NCBI GenBank assembly: GCA_019058295.1
Contig: JAHPZI010000007.1
Coordinates: forward strand, 1 to 64,000
Direction of reading: 5' to 3'
DNA length: 64,000 nt
Origin: Promethearchaeota archaeon
GTDB taxonomy: Archaea; Asgardarchaeota; Lokiarchaeia; Sigyniarchaeales; SOKP01
Positions 36,041-49,216 of the stretch are shown here, in pieces. Under the pieces are notes generated by a model. That model saw only the letters and a program-made list of their open reading frames with translations. It had not been told where the DNA came from and did not search any database. How positions within the stretch are numbered: the first letter of the stretch is position 1; the number at the start of each line of letters is the position of its first letter. Made by a program: the position numbers and the translations under genes.

Positions 36041-38020
36041 ATGAAAAAGGATCAAACTCAATGGAATGATACAAAGAATAACGAAGAATTAGATAAACTA
36101 AGAATAGGATATTATTGTTGCGAATGAGGAATAAATATAAGAGGAAAAATTGACTGCGATAAATTAGCGGAGTATATTAAAAACCTTGATGACGATATAA
36201 TAATATCTAAGAAGAATGCGTTTCTATGAACTGATGCAGCGCAAAATGAAATAATCGAAGATATTAACGAAAAGAACTTAAATCGTATCGTGGCTAGTTC
36301 TTGAACTCCAAGAACGCACGAGCCAATTTATCGCGATTCAATTTCAAAAACAGATTTAAATCCTTACTACTTTCAGATGGTAAATATTCGTGAACATTGC
36401 TCTTGGGTTACAGAAAAAAAAGAGGACGCATTTGAAAAGGCAAAAATTCTAGTAAAGAGTGGTATTGCAAGGGCAAAATGTTTAGAAGTAGTTCCGATCA
36501 GAACTGTACCCGTCGAAAAAGCAACTCTAATAGTAGGGGGTGGAATCGCGGGTATGAATGCTGCGCTCGATTTGGCTAATCAGGGAATTAAAGTTTATCT
36601 TGTTGAAAAAAAGACAACAATAGGTGGTCGCATGGCTCAGCTCGATAGAACATTCCCGACTGATGACTGTGCAATATGAATTTGCGGTCCAAAAATGTTA
36701 GAAGTTAATAGAAATCCTAATATAGAAATAATTAGTTATGCTGAAGTAAAAAAAGTTGAAGGTTATGTTGGGAATTATACTGTAACTGTCGAAAAGAAGC
36801 CTCGATATACAAATAATGATTGTAATGGATGCGGGGCTTGTTCTGAAGTATGTCCCATATACACGATAAATTATTTTGATGAAAATTTAAGCGCTCGAAA
36901 AGCGATTGATATATCATTTGGCCAAGCAGTTCCTTTTCTATATGATATTGATCGAACAGTATGCGTAGAATGCTTTTCTTGAGTGGATGCTTGTGAATTA
37001 GATGCGATTGTATTTAGTCAGGTACCAGAAGAAGTCACCTTTCAAGTCGGTACAATAATTATCGCAACAGGTTGGGATATTCACGAACCCTATGGTGAAT
37101 ACGGTTATGGTGAAATTGAAAATGTTATTACACAAGCACAGCTTGAACGCATGTTGGCTCCAAATGGACCACTTGAAGGGCATGTGCGTAGAATATCGGA
37201 TGACAAAAAACCCAAGGAAATTGTATTTATTCAGTGTGTTGGAAGTCGCGAAACTGATAGAACATATTGTAGTGGAGTTTGCTGCATGCTTGCACTTAAA
37301 AATGGTCGATTGCTTTTAGAAGAATTTCCTGATGCTAATATTACAATATGTTATATTGACATCAGAACAAACGAGAAGGGATTCGAGGAATATTATCAAC
37401 GAGCCAAAGATGCTGGAATGAAAATGATTCGAGGGAAAGTAGGGGAATTCTCAGAAGATCCCGAAACAAAAGATGTTAAAGTACGTGTATATTCCTCTCT
37501 AACTGATGAAATAATTAACATCGATGCAGATTTAGTTGTTCTATCAAGTGCAGCACTGCCTTCACGAGGTACTGAACAAATTGCTAAGGTTCTAAACTTA
37601 GATACGGATAGGAATGGATTTCTTACGGAATCTCATTTTGGTTTGATGCCGCAAGAAACGAAAACAAAGGGAATTTTTATCGCAGGATTCGCTCAGGGTC
37701 CCAAAGACATCGCATATTCCGTATCTCAAGCACGAGCAGCGGCGAGTAAAGTTGCTGAAATGACTTCTGCAGGAGAAATAGAACTTGAACTTATAATAGC
37801 TGAAGTAGATAAAGAATTATGCATTTCATGTAGAAGATGCGAAAAGGAATGTCCAAAATCAGCTATAAAAATTACCGACGCTGAAGGGGCTGTTGTAGAT
37901 GAGATAAATTGTGATGGGTGTGGAATATGTGCGACGTGCTGTCCTACACAAGCAATTGATATACGATATTATAGAGAGAAACAATTATATTCTGAAATTT
38001 CGGCTATTTTAGAATCTTAG
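36041..38020 (+). CDS. hdrA: HdrA with five in-frame TGA (selenocysteine) codons
   Basis: The 659-residue flavin subunit of heterodisulfide reductase is encoded in one frame from ATG 36041 to TAG 38020, interrupted by TGA at 36125, 36227, 36302, 36677 and 36980 (residues 29, 63, 88, 213, 314). Written with U for Sec the contexts are CCEUGIN, AFLUTDAAQ, ASSUTPRTHEP, DDCAIUICGPKM and CVECFSUVDACE. The double HdrA at 42520 has Cys at all five equivalents (CHCGIN, LYSCSSD, VASCTPRTHE, DCSLCILAPKM, GVCGVCEKVC). Order: N-terminal HdrA domain, FAD domain from GGGIAGM (about 165), ferredoxin insert CNGCGACSEVC (about 262), and C-terminal ferredoxins CISCRRCEKEC and CDGCGICATCC. It forms a unit with the Sec MvhD 23 bases downstream. 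Confidence 0.93.
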
Positions 38021-38042: not shown

Positions 38043-38483
38043 GTGGAAAATAATTATTCAATTCTTATGTTTGCGTGTTTAAAATGAGGTTATGGTGCGG
38101 CAGATTTAGCAGGTGTTTCACGATTTAAATACAGTCCTACAGTTAAAATCATCAAATTAAGGTGTACAGGAAGAATTGATGTTAAACATCTCTTGTTTGC
38201 TATAAAATCTGGTGCGGATGGTGTGATGATTGTAGGCTGACGTCCTAATGAGTGCCAATTTAAAGATGGAAACTTTAAAGCCCAAACCCACGTTGATCTT
38301 GCAAATAGAATATTAGATCGTAGAGGTTTTGGGAACCAAAGAATAAATCAGTATTGGTTAAGCTCAGCTGAATCAGAGAAATTAGTAAAAAGTGTTGAAG
38401 ATACAATTGAAAAAATTCAAAGATTAGGGCCTAATCCTCTTAAATCTATCGCAAAAAAAGTCTTAACTACCCCAGCTGAATGA
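38043..38483 (+). CDS. vhuD: MvhD/VhuD (hydrogenase-Hdr linker subunit) with two in-frame TGA (selenocysteine) codons
   Basis: A [2Fe-2S] linker protein that passes electrons to HdrA. Reading starts at GTG 38043, with GGAGGT at 38028, and continues through TGA at 38085 and 38238 to TGA at 38481, giving 146 residues. If the last TGA were also recoded, the frame would run two codons further to TAA at 38490. The protein reads FACLKUGYGAADLAGVSRF, CTGRID and IVGURPNECQF. In the Cys-type copy at 45634 these read FCCNWCSYAGADLAGVSRF, CSGRVD and ITGCHIGDCHY, so both TGA positions align with Cys. A standard open-reading-frame search misses the gene. Confidence 0.9.
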
Positions 38484-38589
38484 ATCTTGTAAATAAATTC
38501 TAGTTACAAGCTAACAATCCTTGCAATGGATGGGGTATTAATGAATAAAATATATATTTTTAAAAATAGGATAAAAATATTGTAGGAAT

Positions 38590-40098
38590 ATGGTTCAAGT
38601 AATAAATAACAAGACTTTTAAGGGCATCTCTCCAAATAAATTAATGGAAGCTACATATAGAGCTGCTGAAAATTTTCAGGTAAGGGCTTTCTATGAAGCT
38701 AAGAATGAAATCTTGAAAGTAGGGAAGTACACAGAAGAAGAATTTTTTAAAATTTTAGATGCGATGATTGATGCTGAGACTGAGCGAAAATTAATATTAG
38801 AGAGATTAAAAAGTAAAGAACCACTGTTTTTGGAAGAGATTGTTAAGATTATCAAGGAATTTTCCCCTGATAATGTTATTCGAGATATAATATATCTTAA
38901 GGAACAAGGTTATATTGATGAAAAAATTGAAGTTAAAACTAAAAAGGTCATAAAAAAGATCAAAGGAGAAGAAAAGGAAGTAGAAGAAAAAGAATATTTT
39001 TATAGATATCAAGTAAAAGATCTTCCAGATGATTTTATTGAACATTATTTTGAACCTGTTTCAATTGTTTTTGAGGCTGAAGTATGTTGTCATTGTGGTT
39101 GGTGTTCATCTATATGCCCTGTGAACGCAATTACAGTCACAGCAGATATATTAGAAATTGATGATAATGCTTGTATGAAATGTGGATTATGCTATACTAT
39201 TTGTCCTCGTTCATTTTCAATCGATCAAGCATATAAAAGTATTAAAAATTTAGATAAATCCTTAAAGTGGTCAGATAAAATTGGGGCTTATTATAACACT
39301 TATTCTGGATCAACTACGAAAGATAAAATTAAAAAAGTCAGGCAAGATGGAGGTGTTGTAACAACTCTACTTGAATATTTATTGAAAAATAAATTGGTTG
39401 ATGCAATTGTTGCGGTTCAACATTCAGTGGATTTATGGAGACCTGAACCTGTGATTGTGGATAATATTAAAGATTTATATAAAACTGGAGGAACGAAATA
39501 TGCAAATTCGCCTTCATTAGAAATCATTGATAAAGCAAAACAATATAACCGTTTAGCAGTAGTGGGCGTTCCATGTATGATGAAAGCTATTGAAAAAGCA
39601 ACATTATTTCCCAGTGGTCTGCCATTTTTTAACAATATTAAATATAAAATAGGGCTCTTTTGTATGGAATCATTTTCATATGCAAAAATAATCAATTTAG
39701 TTAAAGATAAATTTGATAAAGAAATTAATGAGTTAACTAAAATGAATATTGATAAAGGGAAATTTATAATTAACTTAACTTCTGGTGAGGAAATGGCAGT
39801 TGATTTGAAAGAAGTTCAATCTTATGCTCGCCATACTTGTCATTTTTGCGAGGATTTAACATCTGATTATGCTGATATCTCAGTGGGTTCAATAGGATCA
39901 CAGGCTGGCTGGTCTTCAGTAATAACAAGATCAAAAGAAATTGATGAAATTTATAAAGGCGCTGTTAAAGATGGCCTTATTGAATCACAAAACTTAAAAG
40001 AGGTAAAACCAGGGCAATTTTTAGTTGAGCGAATTGCGGGAGTGAAAAGAACAAAGTGTAAAGATCCTTTTTTAGAATTGAAAAAAAAAAGCCAATAA
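38590..40098 (+). CDS. FrhB-like F420/flavin oxidoreductase with N-terminal helical/winged-helix region
   Basis: The 502-residue protein has an unusual N-terminal 150 residues that look like a winged-helix segment with a Lys/Glu-rich hairpin (KKVIKKIKGEEKEVEEKEY). Two ferredoxin motifs, CCHCGWCSSICPV (about 165) and CMKCGLCYTICPR (about 195), precede the FrhB domain with QDGGVVTTLL, VGVPCMMKAI and CHFCEDLTSDYADISVGS. It probably passes electrons between F420 or a flavin and the HdrA proteins around it. It follows the Sec genes by 106 bases and begins a run of plus-strand genes ending in the double HdrA. Confidence 0.9.
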   Translation: MVQVINNKTFKGISPNKLMEATYRAAENFQVRAFYEAKNEILKVGKYTEEEFFKILDAMIDAETERKLILERLKSKEPLFLEEIVKIIKEFSPDNVIRDIIYLKEQGYIDEKIEVKTKKVIKKIKGEEKEVEEKEYFYRYQVKDLPDDFIEHYFEPVSIVFEAEVCCHCGWCSSICPVNAITVTADILEIDDNACMKCGLCYTICPRSFSIDQAYKSIKNLDKSLKWSDKIGAYYNTYSGSTTKDKIKKVRQDGGVVTTLLEYLLKNKLVDAIVAVQHSVDLWRPEPVIVDNIKDLYKTGGTKYANSPSLEIIDKAKQYNRLAVVGVPCMMKAIEKATLFPSGLPFFNNIKYKIGLFCMESFSYAKIINLVKDKFDKEINELTKMNIDKGKFIINLTSGEEMAVDLKEVQSYARHTCHFCEDLTSDYADISVGSIGSQAGWSSVITRSKEIDEIYKGAVKDGLIESQNLKEVKPGQFLVERIAGVKRTKCKDPFLELKKKSQ

Positions 40099-41227: not shown

Positions 41228-42520
41228 GTGAAAAATATAACTGAATCAAAGTCAGGATCAAAAAAAGAATTAGAACGTAAAAAATTATTTTCTGATGCAT
41301 TTAAATATTTAGACAAAGTTTATGAACCAAATTTAAGAAATATTTTGAAAAGATGTTATCAGTGTGGCCGCTGTAGCGGTGTTTGTCAAGTAAGTAAAGT
41401 TCAAAAATTTACTCCAAGTAAAATTATTCAATTAATATTAGAAGGTTTTGAAGATAGAGTAATTGAAAGTGGTGTCTTATGGGATTGTTTAACTTGTAAT
41501 CAATGTCTGAAAGATTGTCCAGAACAAATAAATTTTGCAGATCTTGTACGAATGGCCAGATACAAAATGAGACATGAAGCAGATCAAAATCCTAGTGAGA
41601 TGGTTGCTCATAAAGGGATCTACACTACAATATCTGAACTAATGAGTCGCCCTTATATCGAGCCAGATAGAAATCTTGATTGGATACCTAAAGAATGTAA
41701 AATCACAGATAAGGGAGATACTTTATATTATGTTGGATGTATACCCTATTTTAATTTTGAATTTGAGAATTTAGATAATATCGCATCAAGTACATTAAAA
41801 ATAATGTGTCAATTAGAAGAAGAACCTATTGTAGTTTTTAAAGAAGAAAGTTGTTGTGGACATGATTTATATTGGGGTCAAGGGAAAATAAAAACATTTA
41901 TTAAACTAGCAATGAAAAATATTGAAATGTTCGAAAAAGCAGGAATATCTACAATTGTGACTGCATGTGCTGAGTGTTATAGAACATTTAAAATAGATTA
42001 TCCTAATATATTTGACGATTTTAATGAAAAATTTAAAGTAAAGCATTTAATTGAATATGTGTATGAAAAATGGAAACAGAATAAAATTGCTTTTAAAAAT
42101 CCTAATGAAGATGATAAAGTAATACCTTTTACTTATCATGATCCATGTAGATTAAGCAGATTCTTACCAAATGATAATAATATAACAGAAAAGGTTCGAG
42201 AAATTTTTAAAGAATTTAAAAAATTAGGCTATGAATTTAATGAAATGTTGCATAATAAAGAAAATTCTCTATGTTGCGGAGTTAGTTCTTGGATGAATTG
42301 CAATGAGAAAACTAAAGCGCTGCGATATAAACGTATGTTAGAAGCAAAAGAAGCTGGTGAGATTATGGTTACATCTTGTCCAAAATGCAATATACATCTA
42401 AGTTGCATTCAAAATGATTTTGAGAATATCGCTTCAATTAAAATTATGGATTTTTCTGAATTTTTAGTTGATCATATCGAAGTAATAAAAGACGAAGATA
42501 ATTTGGAGGGAAAGGTGTAG
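41228..42520 (+). CDS. HdrC-HdrB-like (HdrD-type) CCG-domain iron-sulfur protein
   Basis: The 430-residue protein has an N-terminal HdrC-like part with two [4Fe-4S] motifs, CYQCGRCSGVCQV (about 39) and CLTCNQCLKDCPE (about 80). Two CCG domains follow, containing ESCCGHD with CAECYRTFK, and NSLCCGVSS with CPKCNIHLSC. CCG domains bind the noncubane [4Fe-4S] clusters that reduce heterodisulfide in HdrB/HdrD; other families use them for lactate, glycolate or quinone-related substrates. Cys residues of both domains are complete. Its stop overlaps the GTG start of the double HdrA by one base, which implies translational coupling and a shared complex. Confidence 0.88.
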   Translation: MKNITESKSGSKKELERKKLFSDAFKYLDKVYEPNLRNILKRCYQCGRCSGVCQVSKVQKFTPSKIIQLILEGFEDRVIESGVLWDCLTCNQCLKDCPEQINFADLVRMARYKMRHEADQNPSEMVAHKGIYTTISELMSRPYIEPDRNLDWIPKECKITDKGDTLYYVGCIPYFNFEFENLDNIASSTLKIMCQLEEEPIVVFKEESCCGHDLYWGQGKIKTFIKLAMKNIEMFEKAGISTIVTACAECYRTFKIDYPNIFDDFNEKFKVKHLIEYVYEKWKQNKIAFKNPNEDDKVIPFTYHDPCRLSRFLPNDNNITEKVREIFKEFKKLGYEFNEMLHNKENSLCCGVSSWMNCNEKTKALRYKRMLEAKEAGEIMVTSCPKCNIHLSCIQNDFENIASIKIMDFSEFLVDHIEVIKDEDNLEGKV

Positions 42521-45500
42521 TGGAAGGCTCTGTTTTAGTAATTGGGGGTGGTATTGCTGGCATACAAACTTCATTAGATCTCACCGAATTGGGTTTTAAA
42601 GTTTATTTAGTAGAAAGATCACCCTCAATAGGAGGACGTATGTCACAGTTAGATAAGACATTTCCCACTAATGATTGCAGTTTATGTATTCTTGCTCCTA
42701 AAATGGTTGAAGTCTTCAGAAATCCAAATATTGAATTAATGACATATCACGAAGTAAAAAAGGTTACTGGTAAAACTGGTAATTTTCAAGTGACAGTTCT
42801 TAAAAAACCTCGATATATTGATGAGACAAAATGCAAGGGATGTGGTGATTGTGCATCTAAATGCCCAAAAATCGAAGTTCCTAATGCTTTCGATATGAAT
42901 TTAGGAAAAAGAAAATCAGTATATATACCATTTCCTCAAGCTGTACCCCCTATTTATTTAATAGATCCTGAATTATGTCTAAAGCTTACTAAAGGGGTTT
43001 GTGGTGTTTGTGAAAAAGTTTGTCAAGCTGAAGCAATTGTTTATGACCAAAAACCAAAAGAAATTTCAATAAATGTTGGAGCAATTGTTGTAGCTACTGG
43101 ATTTGATATGCCTGCTGAAGAATTATCTTCAAGATGGGGCTATAAATATAAAAATGTTGTAAGTGCTCTTGAATATGAAAGAATCCTATGTGCATCGGGG
43201 CCATTTGAAGGCCATGTTTTAAGGCCGAGTGATGAATCAGAACCAGAAAAAATAGCTTTCATCCAATGTGCCGGTTCTAGGGATTTACATGAAAATGTCC
43301 CATATTGTTCAAGTGTATGTTGTATGTATACTGCAAAAGAAGCAATAATTACTAAGGAACACTCAGATAATTCAAATTGTTTTGTATTTAGGCATGATAT
43401 TAGAGCTTATGGTAAAAATTTTTATGAATTTACTCAAAGGGCTCAAGATGAATATGGGGTTAAATATTTTCAAACAAAAATTAGTAAAATCGAAGAAGAT
43501 AAGGAAACTAATGATTTAATTATCCATTATGAGGATTTAAAATCAGGAAAATTCAATGATTTTCGAGCAAATTTAGTAGTATTAGCTACACCATTAGTTC
43601 CTTCGAAAGGTACAATAGATTTGGCTGAAATTTTGGATATAGAATTAGATCATTACGATTTCTTTAAAGAAAACTCATATTTTAATAAATCTTTATCATC
43701 AAGCGAGGGTATTTTCTTGTGTGGTTTTTGTCAGGGACCAATGGACATACCCGAAACTGTAGCTGATGCAAGTGGAGTTGCTTCTCAAATAGCTGCTTTA
43801 TTAAATTCAGTAAAATATACTGAAACAAAAGAAAAAGTTTTAGAAATACCTGAAATGGAAGTTAAAATATCAGATGAGCCACGAATAGGAGTATTAGTAT
43901 GTCATTGCGGTATTAATATAGGTAAATACGTTGATGTTTCTGAAGTTGTAAATTATCTTAAAACATTACCTTATGTTATTCACAGTGAAGCTAATTTATA
44001 TTCATGTTCCAGTGATTCTCAAGCAAGGATAAAGGAATTAATTAAGGAACATAATTTAAACAGATTTATTGTAGCATCATGTACACCAAGAACTCATGAA
44101 GCATTATTTCAAGAAACATGTCAAGAAGCTGGATTAAATAAATACTTATTTGAAATGGTTAATATCAGAGATCAATGCTCATGGGTTCATATGGGAGATA
44201 ACAAAGCTGCTACTGAGAAAGCTAAGGATTTAATTAGGATGGCAGTTGCGAAAGCACGCTTATTAAAACCATTACCAGAAGCGAAATTGGATATTATACC
44301 CACTACTCTTATTATTGGAGGAGGTGTCTCTGGAATGACTGCTGCATTAAATATAGCTTCTCAGGGATTTAAAGCATATATTATTGAAAAAGAAAATAAG
44401 CTAGGAGGAAATTTAAACAATCTTAATATTTTATATCCAATTCAAGAAGAGGCTTCATTATTTTTGAATGATATCAAGGATAAGGTTAATAACAATAAAA
44501 ATATCCAAATTTTCTTCAATTCTAAAATCAAGAATATTAAAGGTTATATCGGTAATTATGATGTTTCAATTATCGATTCAGAAAATAAAACTTATGATCT
44601 AAAAATTGGAACTATAATTGTCGCCACAGGAGCTCAAGAATTAAAGCCTGATGGAATTTTTCTATATGATAGAAAAAATAGAAATATTATAACTCAATTA
44701 GATTTAGAACAAAAACTAAAAGATAAAGATAAATCATGGTTAGATAATATAAACCGCATAACAACAATTCTATGTGTTAACGCAAGACAAAAAGAAGGAA
44801 TTACTTATTGCTCTAACGTCTGTTGTGGTGTTAGCATTAAAAATATTAATATATTAAAAGAATTGAAACCTGAGCTCGAAATTATTGTTCTTTATAGAGA
44901 TTTCCAAATGGCCAAAAAAGATTTTGAAGAATATTATCGTGAACGTAGAAAAGATGCTGTGTTTTTAAGATATGATTTGGATAATTTACCTAAAATTAAT
45001 AAAACAAATGATAAAATTGAAAAATATAATATAAAGGTATTTGATACTAACTTACAGGACGAGATTGAATTCGAAACAGATTTAATAATTTTATCTACTC
45101 CAATGATCCCAGCGGATAACTTGGAGGAATTGGCAAAAATGCTTAAAGTTCCATTAGATAAAAACGGTTTCTTTTTAGAGGCTCACGTTAAATTAAGACC
45201 TTTAGATTTTGCAACAGATGGAATCTTTTTAGCAGGATGCGCACAATGGCCAAAAAATATTCAAGATTCGATTTCTCAAGCTAATGGTGCTGCGGGGAGA
45301 GCAAGTAGGTTTTTAAGTGCTAAAACAATAACAACCTCAGGTTTAATCGCTGAAGTGAATCCCGAAAGATGTATTGGATGTGGAAAATGTGAATCCGTTT
45401 GCCCTTATAATGCAATAGAAATTAAAGAAGCATCAATGGACTTTGAGGATGTCAGTTTAGTTTTGAAAAAGTCATTCATAAATTCAGCATTATGTAAAGG

Positions 45501-45606
45501 ATGTGGAACTTGTGCTGCTACTTGCCCGAATGGAGCAATTTCAGTGAAACATTACGATTTTGATCAAATTTATGCAATGATTGAATCATATTTATTGGAA
45601 AGATAA
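42520..45606 (+). CDS. Fused double HdrA-like flavoprotein (1,028 residues)
   Basis: Two HdrA-type units lie in one chain. The first starts with its FAD fold, GGGIAGIQTSLDL, then DCSLCILAPKM and a ferredoxin insert CKGCGDCASKCPK. The second begins about residue 455 with the HdrA N-terminal domain CHCGIN..., ASCTPRTHEALF, then a second FAD fold GGGVSGMTAALNI. The second unit lacks the DC..C motif at its equivalent site (GGNLNNLN instead). Two ferredoxin motifs close the protein, CIGCGKCESVCPY and CKGCGTCAATCPN. Start GTG at 42520 has GGAGGG 9 bases before. With two flavins it may bifurcate electrons, as proposed for other HdrA2-like enzymes. Confidence 0.9.
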   Translation: MEGSVLVIGGGIAGIQTSLDLTELGFKVYLVERSPSIGGRMSQLDKTFPTNDCSLCILAPKMVEVFRNPNIELMTYHEVKKVTGKTGNFQVTVLKKPRYIDETKCKGCGDCASKCPKIEVPNAFDMNLGKRKSVYIPFPQAVPPIYLIDPELCLKLTKGVCGVCEKVCQAEAIVYDQKPKEISINVGAIVVATGFDMPAEELSSRWGYKYKNVVSALEYERILCASGPFEGHVLRPSDESEPEKIAFIQCAGSRDLHENVPYCSSVCCMYTAKEAIITKEHSDNSNCFVFRHDIRAYGKNFYEFTQRAQDEYGVKYFQTKISKIEEDKETNDLIIHYEDLKSGKFNDFRANLVVLATPLVPSKGTIDLAEILDIELDHYDFFKENSYFNKSLSSSEGIFLCGFCQGPMDIPETVADASGVASQIAALLNSVKYTETKEKVLEIPEMEVKISDEPRIGVLVCHCGINIGKYVDVSEVVNYLKTLPYVIHSEANLYSCSSDSQARIKELIKEHNLNRFIVASCTPRTHEALFQETCQEAGLNKYLFEMVNIRDQCSWVHMGDNKAATEKAKDLIRMAVAKARLLKPLPEAKLDIIPTTLIIGGGVSGMTAALNIASQGFKAYIIEKENKLGGNLNNLNILYPIQEEASLFLNDIKDKVNNNKNIQIFFNSKIKNIKGYIGNYDVSIIDSENKTYDLKIGTIIVATGAQELKPDGIFLYDRKNRNIITQLDLEQKLKDKDKSWLDNINRITTILCVNARQKEGITYCSNVCCGVSIKNINILKELKPELEIIVLYRDFQMAKKDFEEYYRERRKDAVFLRYDLDNLPKINKTNDKIEKYNIKVFDTNLQDEIEFETDLIILSTPMIPADNLEELAKMLKVPLDKNGFFLEAHVKLRPLDFATDGIFLAGCAQWPKNIQDSISQANGAAGRASRFLSAKTITTSGLIAEVNPERCIGCGKCESVCPYNAIEIKEASMDFEDVSLVLKKSFINSALCKGCGTCAATCPNGAISVKHYDFDQIYAMIESYLLER

Positions 45607-45633: not shown

Positions 45634-46071
45634 ATGTCAAAAACAAAAAGAAAAGTTAAGAAAAAAGATTTTAATCCGGAAATTTTAGTTTTTTGTTGTA
45701 ATTGGTGCTCTTATGCAGGAGCAGATCTAGCAGGAGTTTCAAGATTCCAATATCCTCCTAATATGAGAATTGTTCGTGTTATGTGTTCAGGAAGAGTTGA
45801 TCCCTCATTTGTATTAAAAGCTTTAAAAGAAGGAGCTGATGGTGTTCTTATTACTGGATGCCATATAGGTGATTGTCATTATATCAGTGGTAATGAATAC
45901 ACTCGAGATAGATTTCAAAAACTTCATCAATTTATTATAAAACAACTGGGAATAAATGGAAAACGTGTAAGATTAGAATGGGTAAGTGCCTCTGAGGGAA
46001 AGCGATTTGCTGAATTAATCACTGAATTTACTAATCAAATAAAAGAATTAGGCCCATTTAAAGTTCTTTAA
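45634..46071 (+). CDS. mvhD: MvhD (hydrogenase-Hdr linker, Cys-type)
   Basis: A 145-residue [2Fe-2S] linker of the MvhD/HdrA-associated family. Key Cys lie in FCCNWCSYAGADLAG, MCSGRVDP and GCHIGDCHY. A Lys-rich N-terminal extension (MSKTKRKVKKKDF) is not in the Sec copy. It directly follows the double HdrA and should bind it. It is the Cys counterpart of the Sec VhuD at 38043, about 7.6 kb apart. No hydrogenase large subunit is in the window, so the electron source is not seen here. Confidence 0.95.
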   Translation: MSKTKRKVKKKDFNPEILVFCCNWCSYAGADLAGVSRFQYPPNMRIVRVMCSGRVDPSFVLKALKEGADGVLITGCHIGDCHYISGNEYTRDRFQKLHQFIIKQLGINGKRVRLEWVSASEGKRFAELITEFTNQIKELGPFKVL

Positions 46072-46450: not shown

Positions 46451-49216
46451 TTGGAAGGTTCCGTATTAGTTATTGGTGGTGGGATTGCTGGCATTCAGAC
46501 CTCATTGGATCTAACTGAACTAGGATTTAAAGTATATTTAGTTGAAAGAGAACCATCACTTGGAGGTCATATGGCGCAACTAGATAAATTATATCCTCAA
46601 GATGATTGTAGTTTATGTATGCTTGCTCCTAAAATGGTCGCTGTATATAAAAATCCCAATATTGAAATATTGACATTATCTAATGTGCAAAAAGTTTCTG
46701 GAAAAGCTGGAAATTTCACTGTAAGTATTATTAAAAATCCACGCTACATTGATGAAACAAAATGTAGAGGATGTGGAGATTGTGCCGCTAAATGTCCTAA
46801 AATTGAAGCTCCTAATGCTTTTGATATGAATTTCGGTAAACGTAAATCGATATATATTCCATTTCCTCAAGCAACTCCTCCTGTATATTTAATTGATCCT
46901 AAATTATGTCTTTATTTAAATAGAGACATATGTGGTGTATGTAATAAAGTTTGTAAAGCTGGAGCGATTGAATTTGAACAAAAGTCTCAGGAAATTACAT
47001 TAAATGTTGGAGCGATTGTAGTTGCTACTGGATTTGATATTTTAGGTGATAAATTAGCACCGATTTGGGGTTATCAATATAAGAATGTAATTAATGCTTT
47101 AGAGTATGAAAGAATTTTATGCCCCACTGGACCATTTGGTGGGTTTGTTTTGCGACCAAGTGATGAACAAGAACCTGAAAAAATTGCTTTTATTCAATGT
47201 GCTGGTTCCGGTTATTTGAAGGGAAATGTACCATATTGTTCCCATGTATGTTGTTTATATACTGCAAAACAAGCAAAGCTGACAAAAATTTACGCTGAGA
47301 ATTCTCAAGTTTTTGTATTTAGGCATAATATTAGAGTTTATGGAAGAGAATTTTATGAATATACTAAAAAGATTCAGAAAGATTATGATATTAAGTATTT
47401 TCATTCCAAAATAAACAATATTGAAGAAGATTCTGAAACCAATGATTTAATTATCCACTATGTTGATTTAAAAGATGAAAAATTAATCGATAAAGATTTT
47501 CGAGCAAATATGGTTGTTTTAGCCTCTCCAGTTGTTCCTGCTAAAGGCACAGAAAAATTAGCAAAATTATTAGGAATAAAATTAGGGAGATATAGTTTTT
47601 TTAAATCAAATTCCTATTTTAACACCTCTCAATCTACACGAGAAGGAGTTTATTTATGTGGAGCAAATCATGGACCAATTAATATCTCCCAAAGTGTTTC
47701 TGAAGCTAGCGCTGTGGCCTCTCAGGTTGCTATCCTCTTAAATTCAGCTAAATACTCTAAGATTACTGAAAAAGAAGTCGATATATTACCCGATGAGAGT
47801 ATTATCAAGATGACGCCTCATGCGTTGATAATTGGTGGTGGGGTCTCTGGTATGACTGCTGCCTTGAATATTAGCGAGCAAGGTTTTGAAACAAGCATTA
47901 TAGAAAAAGAAGAAAGATTAGGAGGGAATTTAAATGATATAAATATTTTATATCCATCTCATCAAGAAGCCTCAGAATTTTTAAATGAAATAGAAAATAA
48001 GGTCAGAAATAATAAAAACATTCAAGTTTTCTTAAATTCTAAAGTAAAAGAGATAAATGGTTCCCTCGGTAATTATAGAGTTTTAATTTTCGATTCTAAA
48101 AATAATACTCATGAATTAAAAGTTGGAACCATTATTGTTGCAACTGGAAGTCAAGAATTTAAACCACATGGATTATTTCAATATGAGAAAAAAAATAAGA
48201 ACGTTATAATACAAAAAGATTTAGAAAAATTGCTTAAAAGTAAAGATACATCTTGGCTTGATAAAATAAATCATGTAACTACGATTTTATGTGTGAATGC
48301 TCGACAAAAAGGTGGGTATTCATATTGCTCAAATATTTGTTGTGGTACTTCAATAAAAAATATCAATATTTTGAATAAAGTAAAACCAAATCTAGATTTT
48401 GTTGTACTCTTCCGAGATCTTCATGTCGCGAAAAAAGAATTTGAAGAATTTTTTAGTAAGAGAAAAGAAATTGCAAATTATTTAAGATATGATCCAGAAA
48501 ATATCCCTGAAATTACTAAAATTCAGGATAATCCAGAAAGATACGAAATAAAATTATACAACGAGAGAAACACAAATGAATACATAAAATTCAAAACTGA
48601 CCTCATTGTGTTATCAACTCCTATGATACCTAATGATGATAATGAAGAATTAGCCCAAATGCTTAAGATTCCTTTAGATGATAATAGTTTTTTTATCGAA
48701 GCGCATGCTAAATTAAGACCCTTGGATTTTTCCGCACATGGAGTTTTCATATGTGGTAGTGCATTATGGCCTAAAAATGTACAAGAATCTATAGCAGAAG
48801 CAAATGGAGCAGCGGGAAGGGCAAGTAGATTCTTAAGTTTAAAGGAGATTTCAACTACAAAATTAGAATTACTCTCATTTCTGCTTTCTATCCAATGTTT
48901 TTTTAAGGATATGATTGTAAACAATGAAAGATGTAATGGATGCGGAAGATGTGTGGAAGTCTGTCAATTTAAAGCGATAACATTAACAGATTTAAAACAA
49001 GAATTCGAGGATGTAACAGTGCCGGCTAAAAAGGCATATATTAATCCTGCCTTATGTAAAGGGTGTGGAAGATGTGCTGCCACGTGTAGGATAAAAGCGA
49101 TTGATCCCCTACATTATGACTTTAATCAAATCAAATCTATAATTGATCCTTACTTCTTAGAAAAAGTGAAAAGTGAGGAAATGGAAGAAAAAACTGAATT
49201 ACTGATGATTGATTAA
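46451..49216 (+). CDS. Second fused double HdrA-like flavoprotein (921 residues)
   Basis: The protein closely resembles the 42520 protein but lacks the middle HdrA N-terminal domain (no CHCGIN/SCTPRTH segment), so the two FAD units are joined directly near residue 455. Unit 1 has GGGIAGIQTSLDL, DCSLCMLAPKM and CRGCGDCAAKCPK. Unit 2 has GGGVSGMTAALNI and GGNLNDIN. The final ferredoxin motifs are CNGCGRCVEVCQF and CKGCGRCAATCRI, each with a non-Pro residue after the last Cys (Q and R). The start TTG at 46451 has GGAGG upstream. It has its own promoter region, separate from the earlier operon, and is probably a duplicate. Confidence 0.9.
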   Translation: MEGSVLVIGGGIAGIQTSLDLTELGFKVYLVEREPSLGGHMAQLDKLYPQDDCSLCMLAPKMVAVYKNPNIEILTLSNVQKVSGKAGNFTVSIIKNPRYIDETKCRGCGDCAAKCPKIEAPNAFDMNFGKRKSIYIPFPQATPPVYLIDPKLCLYLNRDICGVCNKVCKAGAIEFEQKSQEITLNVGAIVVATGFDILGDKLAPIWGYQYKNVINALEYERILCPTGPFGGFVLRPSDEQEPEKIAFIQCAGSGYLKGNVPYCSHVCCLYTAKQAKLTKIYAENSQVFVFRHNIRVYGREFYEYTKKIQKDYDIKYFHSKINNIEEDSETNDLIIHYVDLKDEKLIDKDFRANMVVLASPVVPAKGTEKLAKLLGIKLGRYSFFKSNSYFNTSQSTREGVYLCGANHGPINISQSVSEASAVASQVAILLNSAKYSKITEKEVDILPDESIIKMTPHALIIGGGVSGMTAALNISEQGFETSIIEKEERLGGNLNDINILYPSHQEASEFLNEIENKVRNNKNIQVFLNSKVKEINGSLGNYRVLIFDSKNNTHELKVGTIIVATGSQEFKPHGLFQYEKKNKNVIIQKDLEKLLKSKDTSWLDKINHVTTILCVNARQKGGYSYCSNICCGTSIKNINILNKVKPNLDFVVLFRDLHVAKKEFEEFFSKRKEIANYLRYDPENIPEITKIQDNPERYEIKLYNERNTNEYIKFKTDLIVLSTPMIPNDDNEELAQMLKIPLDDNSFFIEAHAKLRPLDFSAHGVFICGSALWPKNVQESIAEANGAAGRASRFLSLKEISTTKLELLSFLLSIQCFFKDMIVNNERCNGCGRCVEVCQFKAITLTDLKQEFEDVTVPAKKAYINPALCKGCGRCAATCRIKAIDPLHYDFNQIKSIIDPYFLEKVKSEEMEEKTELLMID

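Follow-up and report, generated by a model that had tools for sequence, protein, structure and literature searches.

A vhuD gene with two predicted selenocysteine codons whose apparent UGA stop lies in the core of a eukaryote-like SECIS element in a Promethearchaeota archaeon

The window, that is, the whole stretch of 64,000 nucleotides that was analysed, belongs to a genome with 58 matches to PF00071 (Ras-type small GTPase), as expected for an Asgard archaeon, and it carries an hdrA gene followed after 22 nt by the frame under study (Table 1). SECIS type and gene set, rather than a species tree, point to Lokiarchaeia. This frame runs from 38043 to 38492 and contains TGA at codons 15 (38085), 66 (38238) and 147 (38481), the last of which is followed by ATC, TTG and a TAA at 38490; a preliminary description of this DNA had given the coordinates of the frame, of its three TGA and of the TAA correctly. 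With TGA read as selenocysteine (Sec), the FlpD domain (PF02662) spans the whole product (E = 1.6e-41, residues 7-129, profile positions 1-123). The NCBIfam model for VhuD (NF045873) scored 163.8 bits on the window protein, below its curated cut-off of 215 bits, and the name VhuD is used here for the product only as that of the closest model. Two more long HdrA-like frames, with Cys for Sec, are found just downstream at 42520-45606 and 46451-49216, which brings the hdrA-type genes to three in a span of 13 kb.

Table 1. Positions and supporting observations for the genes, codons and RNA features discussed in the text.
Feature	Position	Strand	Remarks
hdrA	36041..38020	+	Five in-frame TGA (36125, 36227, 36302, 36677, 36980); stop TAG; NCBIfam HdrA2, E 2.6e-228
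vhuD/mvhD coding sequence	38043..38483	+	146 residues; GTG start; end at TGA 38481; from Pfam FlpD, frame and codons
Predicted Sec codon 1 (residue 15)	38085..38087	+	Opposite invariant Cys; TGA in 48/48 orthologs
Predicted Sec codon 2 (residue 66)	38238..38240	+	Opposite invariant Cys; TGA in 48/48 orthologs
Whole SECIS	38468..38537 (model match 38460-38545)	+	Covariation, model search, fold
Lower stem, 5' strand ACCCC	38469..38473	+	Partner GGGGU 38532-38536; compensatory changes in 4/5 pairs (vhuD) and 5/5 pairs (other genes)
AUGA core strand	38480..38483	+	UGA 38481-38483 is the inferred vhuD stop; invariant in 44 aligned type I elements, in any frame
Upper stem, 5' strand	38484..38492	+	Partner 38504-38512; includes TAA 38490; compensatory changes in 8/9 pairs
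Apical loop with conserved AAA	38493..38503	+	Alignment; agrees with published loop feature
AA facing AUGA (AUGA_AA core variant)	38513..38514	+	Alignment; variant listed for Lokiarchaeia hdrA/frhD
Second (side) hairpin AUCC-UUGCAAU-GGAU	38517..38531	+	Fold; covariation mainly from other SECIS, weak in vhuD alone
Cys-containing MvhD copy (comparison sequence)	45634..46071	+	No internal stop; Cys at both Sec positions
Small single-span frame	G000:C14:94159-94323	-	Outside the window

Codons 15 and 66 of vhuD align with Cys residues of the MvhD copy at 45634 (38% identity, E = 1e-34), in agreement with the preliminary description, and Cys-only copies without an internal stop occur in the same genome as the Sec-encoding vhuD. 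Each of the 48 orthologs in our match list, which had not demanded a second TGA, has at least two TGA, and a family-level search checked the second position as VGU in all 48 close orthologs. Because this conservation is accompanied by Cys homologs, by a SECIS further downstream and by Sec machinery encoded in the genome, residues 15 and 66 are well supported as predicted selenocysteines, and the earlier proposal of a VhuD with two Sec codons is upheld. Such a VhuD is already present in the literature (PMC9622424, PMC11881835). If UGA 38085 ended the gene, with only a pseudogene or a fortuitous open frame behind it, both UGAs would have had to keep their codon positions across 48 species, within a frame that is otherwise open and conserved and in the presence of a SECIS and of Sec machinery; no supporting point was found for this reading, which we regard as vanishingly improbable.

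As for the Sec machinery, a tRNA-Sec candidate with a UCA anticodon lies approximately 220 nt upstream of SepSecS; it was read from an Rfam match below the family cut-off, and ARAGORN did not report a tRNA-Sec. An EFSec-like factor is encoded on the same contig, and the three genes fall within 6 kb (G000:C30:98363-104080). The selD gene of this genome carries a TGA codon itself, as expected for a Sec-containing SelD, and the Pfam model employed for PSTK had no match in this assembly, which is 79% complete. The tRNA-Sec candidate gene apparently encodes its CCA end (GCCA); archaeal tRNA-Sec genes do not encode CCA, according to a review.

The preliminary description saw no RNA element at the third TGA, but our analysis places this triplet inside a SECIS. 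Since Rfam gave no match in the region at E values up to 5, a covariance model was built from the vhuD orthologs, and this model recovered five additional elements of this genome from outside the training set (E = 1e-7 to 1e-12), as well as matches in all 65 genomes of the family. The further elements that were inspected lie at the ends of selD, a vhuU-like gene, other Sec vhuD copies, a peroxiredoxin-like gene and small open frames. The window element shares with the eSECIS-like type I of Asgard archaea (PMC11227280) its place at the 3' end of an hdrA-vhuD pair, with the UGA stop overlapping AUGA, and each part of its structure: the core (5'-GA_[G/A]A-3', mainly AUGA_GA or AUGA_AA) is AUGA at 38480-38483 with AA opposite at 38513-38514, the upper stem (7-15 bp with at most 2 mismatches in type I) has 9 positions and 1 mismatch in the window, and the A-rich apical loop (8-20 nt, unpaired adenines first) is the 11 nt AUAAAUUCUAG, in which AAA is invariant. 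AUGA, stem and A-rich loop were found in 48 of the 48 vhuD orthologs, and 96% of the upper-stem cells are paired and covarying across them. Counted on a sequence-only alignment of 44 of these 48 orthologs, the upper stem has 35 compensatory cells, compared with 9.5 in shuffled alignments (0 of 500 shuffles were as high), and the signal was lost once the partner strand was slid along. Folding of 38478-38600, where the 5' strand of the lower stem is omitted, gave no significant structure (z = -0.16), and the 24 nt after the core had only a mild stability excess over shuffled sequence (mean z = -0.9). On this sequence evidence, the element at 38468-38537 is a eukaryote-like, type I Asgard SECIS, predicted to direct Sec insertion. 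Eukaryote-like SECIS elements of the Asgard hdrA and frhD (vhuD) genes were reportedly first described by Mariotti et al. in 2016.

A second hairpin lies between the SECIS core and the lower-stem 3' strand; it directly abuts the lower stem in the junction obtained by folding 38466-38540, with only a modest z-score (-1.4). Across 62 elements from other genes and from paralogs, the helix of this hairpin shows 35 compensatory cells versus 12.7 after shuffling (a count reached in 0 of 500 shuffles), and one C-G pair does not vary; the result is biased towards the helix since these elements were selected by a model that includes it. The vhuD orthologs alone, represented by 44 elements selected by protein similarity and aligned without structure, gave 6 compensatory cells versus 2.3 (5 of 500 shuffles as high). 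The lower stem and the side hairpin were picked out manually before their changes were counted, a weaker form of evidence than blind prediction, and RNAalifold returned the upper stem alone from the vhuD alignment. By folding, the same junction type was obtained for vhuD 3' ends with unrelated sequences from other families of the class (L242, L243 and L244), and L241 has a second hairpin beside the lower stem; two elements of this genome (C9 and C14) have different minimum-energy folds. The Sec vhuD 3' ends of L242 and L244 show the three-way junction fold without a clear AUGA core. Lokiarchaeota SECIS have one apical loop according to a review, and the Asgard type I model of Huang et al. (PMC11227280) consists of core, upper stem and loop only, whereas the window element adds a covarying second hairpin. 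The arguments seem to us evenly balanced on whether the lokiarchaeal SECIS is a three-way junction and not a single hairpin, with a eukaryote-like AUGA arm and a short hairpin with a GC-containing loop abutting the lower stem, common to the SECIS of this genome and to vhuD SECIS from other families in the class. If so, the second hairpin would be a recognition part absent from eukaryotic SECIS, perhaps a methanogen-type remnant and, if confirmed, it would change the drawn structure of an element thought to link archaeal and eukaryotic Sec insertion.

For the third TGA the preliminary description left two meanings, a true stop or a third recoded codon, and it named a comparison of orthologous VhuD genes as a way to tell whether the resulting tail is kept. 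That comparison favours the stop. The first candidate stop is the core UGA, in frame, in 33 of the 48 orthologs; it is another UGA four bases earlier in 5, where the SECIS core is out of frame, and a TAA or TAG upstream in 10. These stop classes need at least 9 changes on the protein tree of the vhuD orthologs. The two nearest relatives of the window vhuD have a TAA stop 17 nt before the core UGA, and in two other Sec vhuD copies of this genome a TAG stop is found five bases before it. The element, its conservation and this shifting of the stop against the core can be read from the nucleotides themselves. Behind the core UGA, the hypothetical tail is absent in 10 orthologs, different in 5 and longer in 6 (21 of 48), and the tails that a Sec reading would allow are UIL, UFL, UVL, UNL, ULL, UILK, UILUEKY or stretches of more than 20 residues that span the entire SECIS (L013, L029 and L036). 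A third Sec codon should appear as a conserved UGA with conserved flanks, or as Cys in its place; in 15 of 48 orthologs the core UGA is either missing or not in frame, and none of the aligned Cys homologs extends to the 38481 position.

Pairing within the RNA also bears on these triplets, as the first tail codon covaries with its pairing partner and the upper stem of the SECIS has the TAA at 38490 as its inner end. Most species with an in-frame core UGA have a TAA no more than 12 nt behind it. This would fit a short read-through tail too, but the closeness of the TAA is explained here by its being part of the upper stem. Since UGA 38481 is the AUGA core and the TAA lies in the stem, neither triplet need persist for protein reasons; the majority of the 33 in-frame cases group together on the tree and are therefore not independent. 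A VhuD that ends in Sec-Ile-Leu, with its stop at TAA 38490, would agree with the in-frame UGA and the nearby TAA, both in this gene and in the majority of the 33 in-frame orthologs, and with the presence of a SECIS. However, besides the tail counts given above, this ending is missing in the nearest relatives, the RNA structure accounts for both UGA and TAA, and decoding would be required inside the SECIS core whereas the known archaeal spacing is at least 70 nt, so that we consider it highly improbable. It is also very unlikely, in our view, that 38481 is a leaky stop with mainly release and some Sec or near-cognate read-through to 38490, perhaps with terminating ribosomes exerting a regulatory effect on the SECIS: although a terminating ribosome would physically overlap the element, the arrangement is not conserved, as 15 of 48 orthologs lack a core-UGA stop, and points to no fixed role. 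Given the lack of conservation in the tail, a true stop is favoured over a third recoded codon, and the UGA at 38481 is best read as the normal stop of vhuD, where we infer that termination takes place. Vertebrate deiodinase 2 has a second in-frame UGA near its C-terminus with another stop soon after, the meaning of which is ambiguous from sequence; that late UGA lies outside the SECIS, whereas the vhuD UGA at 38481 is inside the core. A separate short vhuU-like frame of this genome (L063:1552-1734, G000:C5; ~53 aa, FDCULSCAAH) is closed by the UGA of the AUGA core in its own SECIS, with a TAA 12 nt further on, and presents the same ambiguity.

Each of the five TGAs in hdrA aligns with a conserved Cys in the HdrA from the frame at 42520. 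The SECIS lies 242 and 395 nt from the Sec codons of vhuD and 1,500 to 2,355 nt from those of hdrA, and the window holds no other match to the SECIS model, although an hdrA signal of another type is possible. Since hdrA and vhuD are so close together, sharing is most likely, and the SECIS at the vhuD 3' end probably serves seven predicted Sec codons in the two genes, the farthest at a distance of 2.36 kb. Huang et al. propose one SECIS common to hdrA and frhD/vhuD (PMC11227280). The SECIS-to-UGA spacing in archaeal genes is 70-1,500 nt (PMC9499178), a range that 2,355 nt would exceed if hdrA relies on the vhuD SECIS. The preliminary description had valued this gene as a test of the recoding rule, and this value is retained in altered form: judged by conservation, seven upstream UGAs look recoded and the core UGA apparently is not.

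The overlap of UGA stop and AUGA, the shared hdrA-frhD element and the presence of two Sec in VhuD are all previously known; the overlap is frequent among the selenoprotein genes of Lokiarchaeia (PMC11227280). In Methanococcales, vhuD has two Sec codons and one 3' SECIS, as here (PMC9622424, PMC11881835), but that SECIS is of the GAA_A type and the window SECIS is of another type. When genome contigs were scanned with a VhuD alignment, none of the VhuD expected from Methanococcales came up, because the patterns of the alignment read Cys. One lokiarchaeal SECIS proved non-functional in M. maripaludis (PMC11881835).

Small open frames with a single membrane span precede 22 of the 62 sampled SECIS matches. 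Their layout is a basic N-terminus, one hydrophobic helix and an acidic/Gly linker, followed mostly by GG-UGA-x-C. Relatives of the small frame of G000:C14 include L101-L104, L106, L108, L109, L112, L117, L120, L124, L126, L127, L131, L136, L138, L145-L147, L151 and L153. In a coding test, the candidate small selenoproteins had a third-base excess before the UGA and none after it, and therefore their tails are not claimed. It is possible that these frames, as predicted, form an undescribed family of small membrane selenoproteins; Huang et al. found no eukaryote-specific selenoprotein family in Asgard archaea (PMC11227280). Other SECIS matches (L128, L134, L137, L144 and L110, L116, L118, L154) lie behind frames of two other kinds, those with CFU, CDIFU or CDLPIU after an acidic stretch and two-helix membrane frames with an internal UGA.

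The mechanism that we propose is that vhuD would encode an electron-transfer subunit of 146 residues with Sec at residues 15 and 66, and that the 3' SECIS would recode the two upstream UGAs of vhuD and most likely the five of hdrA as well. The UGA at 38481 would be kept since the SECIS core requires AUGA and the reading frame leads into this sequence. With 38481 in the A site, the ribosome would sit on the 5' strand of the upper stem, and the SECIS, opened or occluded, would probably not act on this UGA, so that release would win. The explanation as a whole, with a two-Sec VhuD, a SECIS shared with hdrA and the core UGA at 38481 as a normal stop, is in our judgement very probably correct. Within approximately 2.4 kb, seven UGAs are apparently read as Sec and one as a stop; one SECIS is within reach of all these UGAs, and the stop UGA is part of it. 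This locus may therefore serve as a natural case for the reach of a SECIS and for why a UGA within it is spared, and the orthologs with an upstream TAA or TAG and the core out of frame would be ready-made controls.
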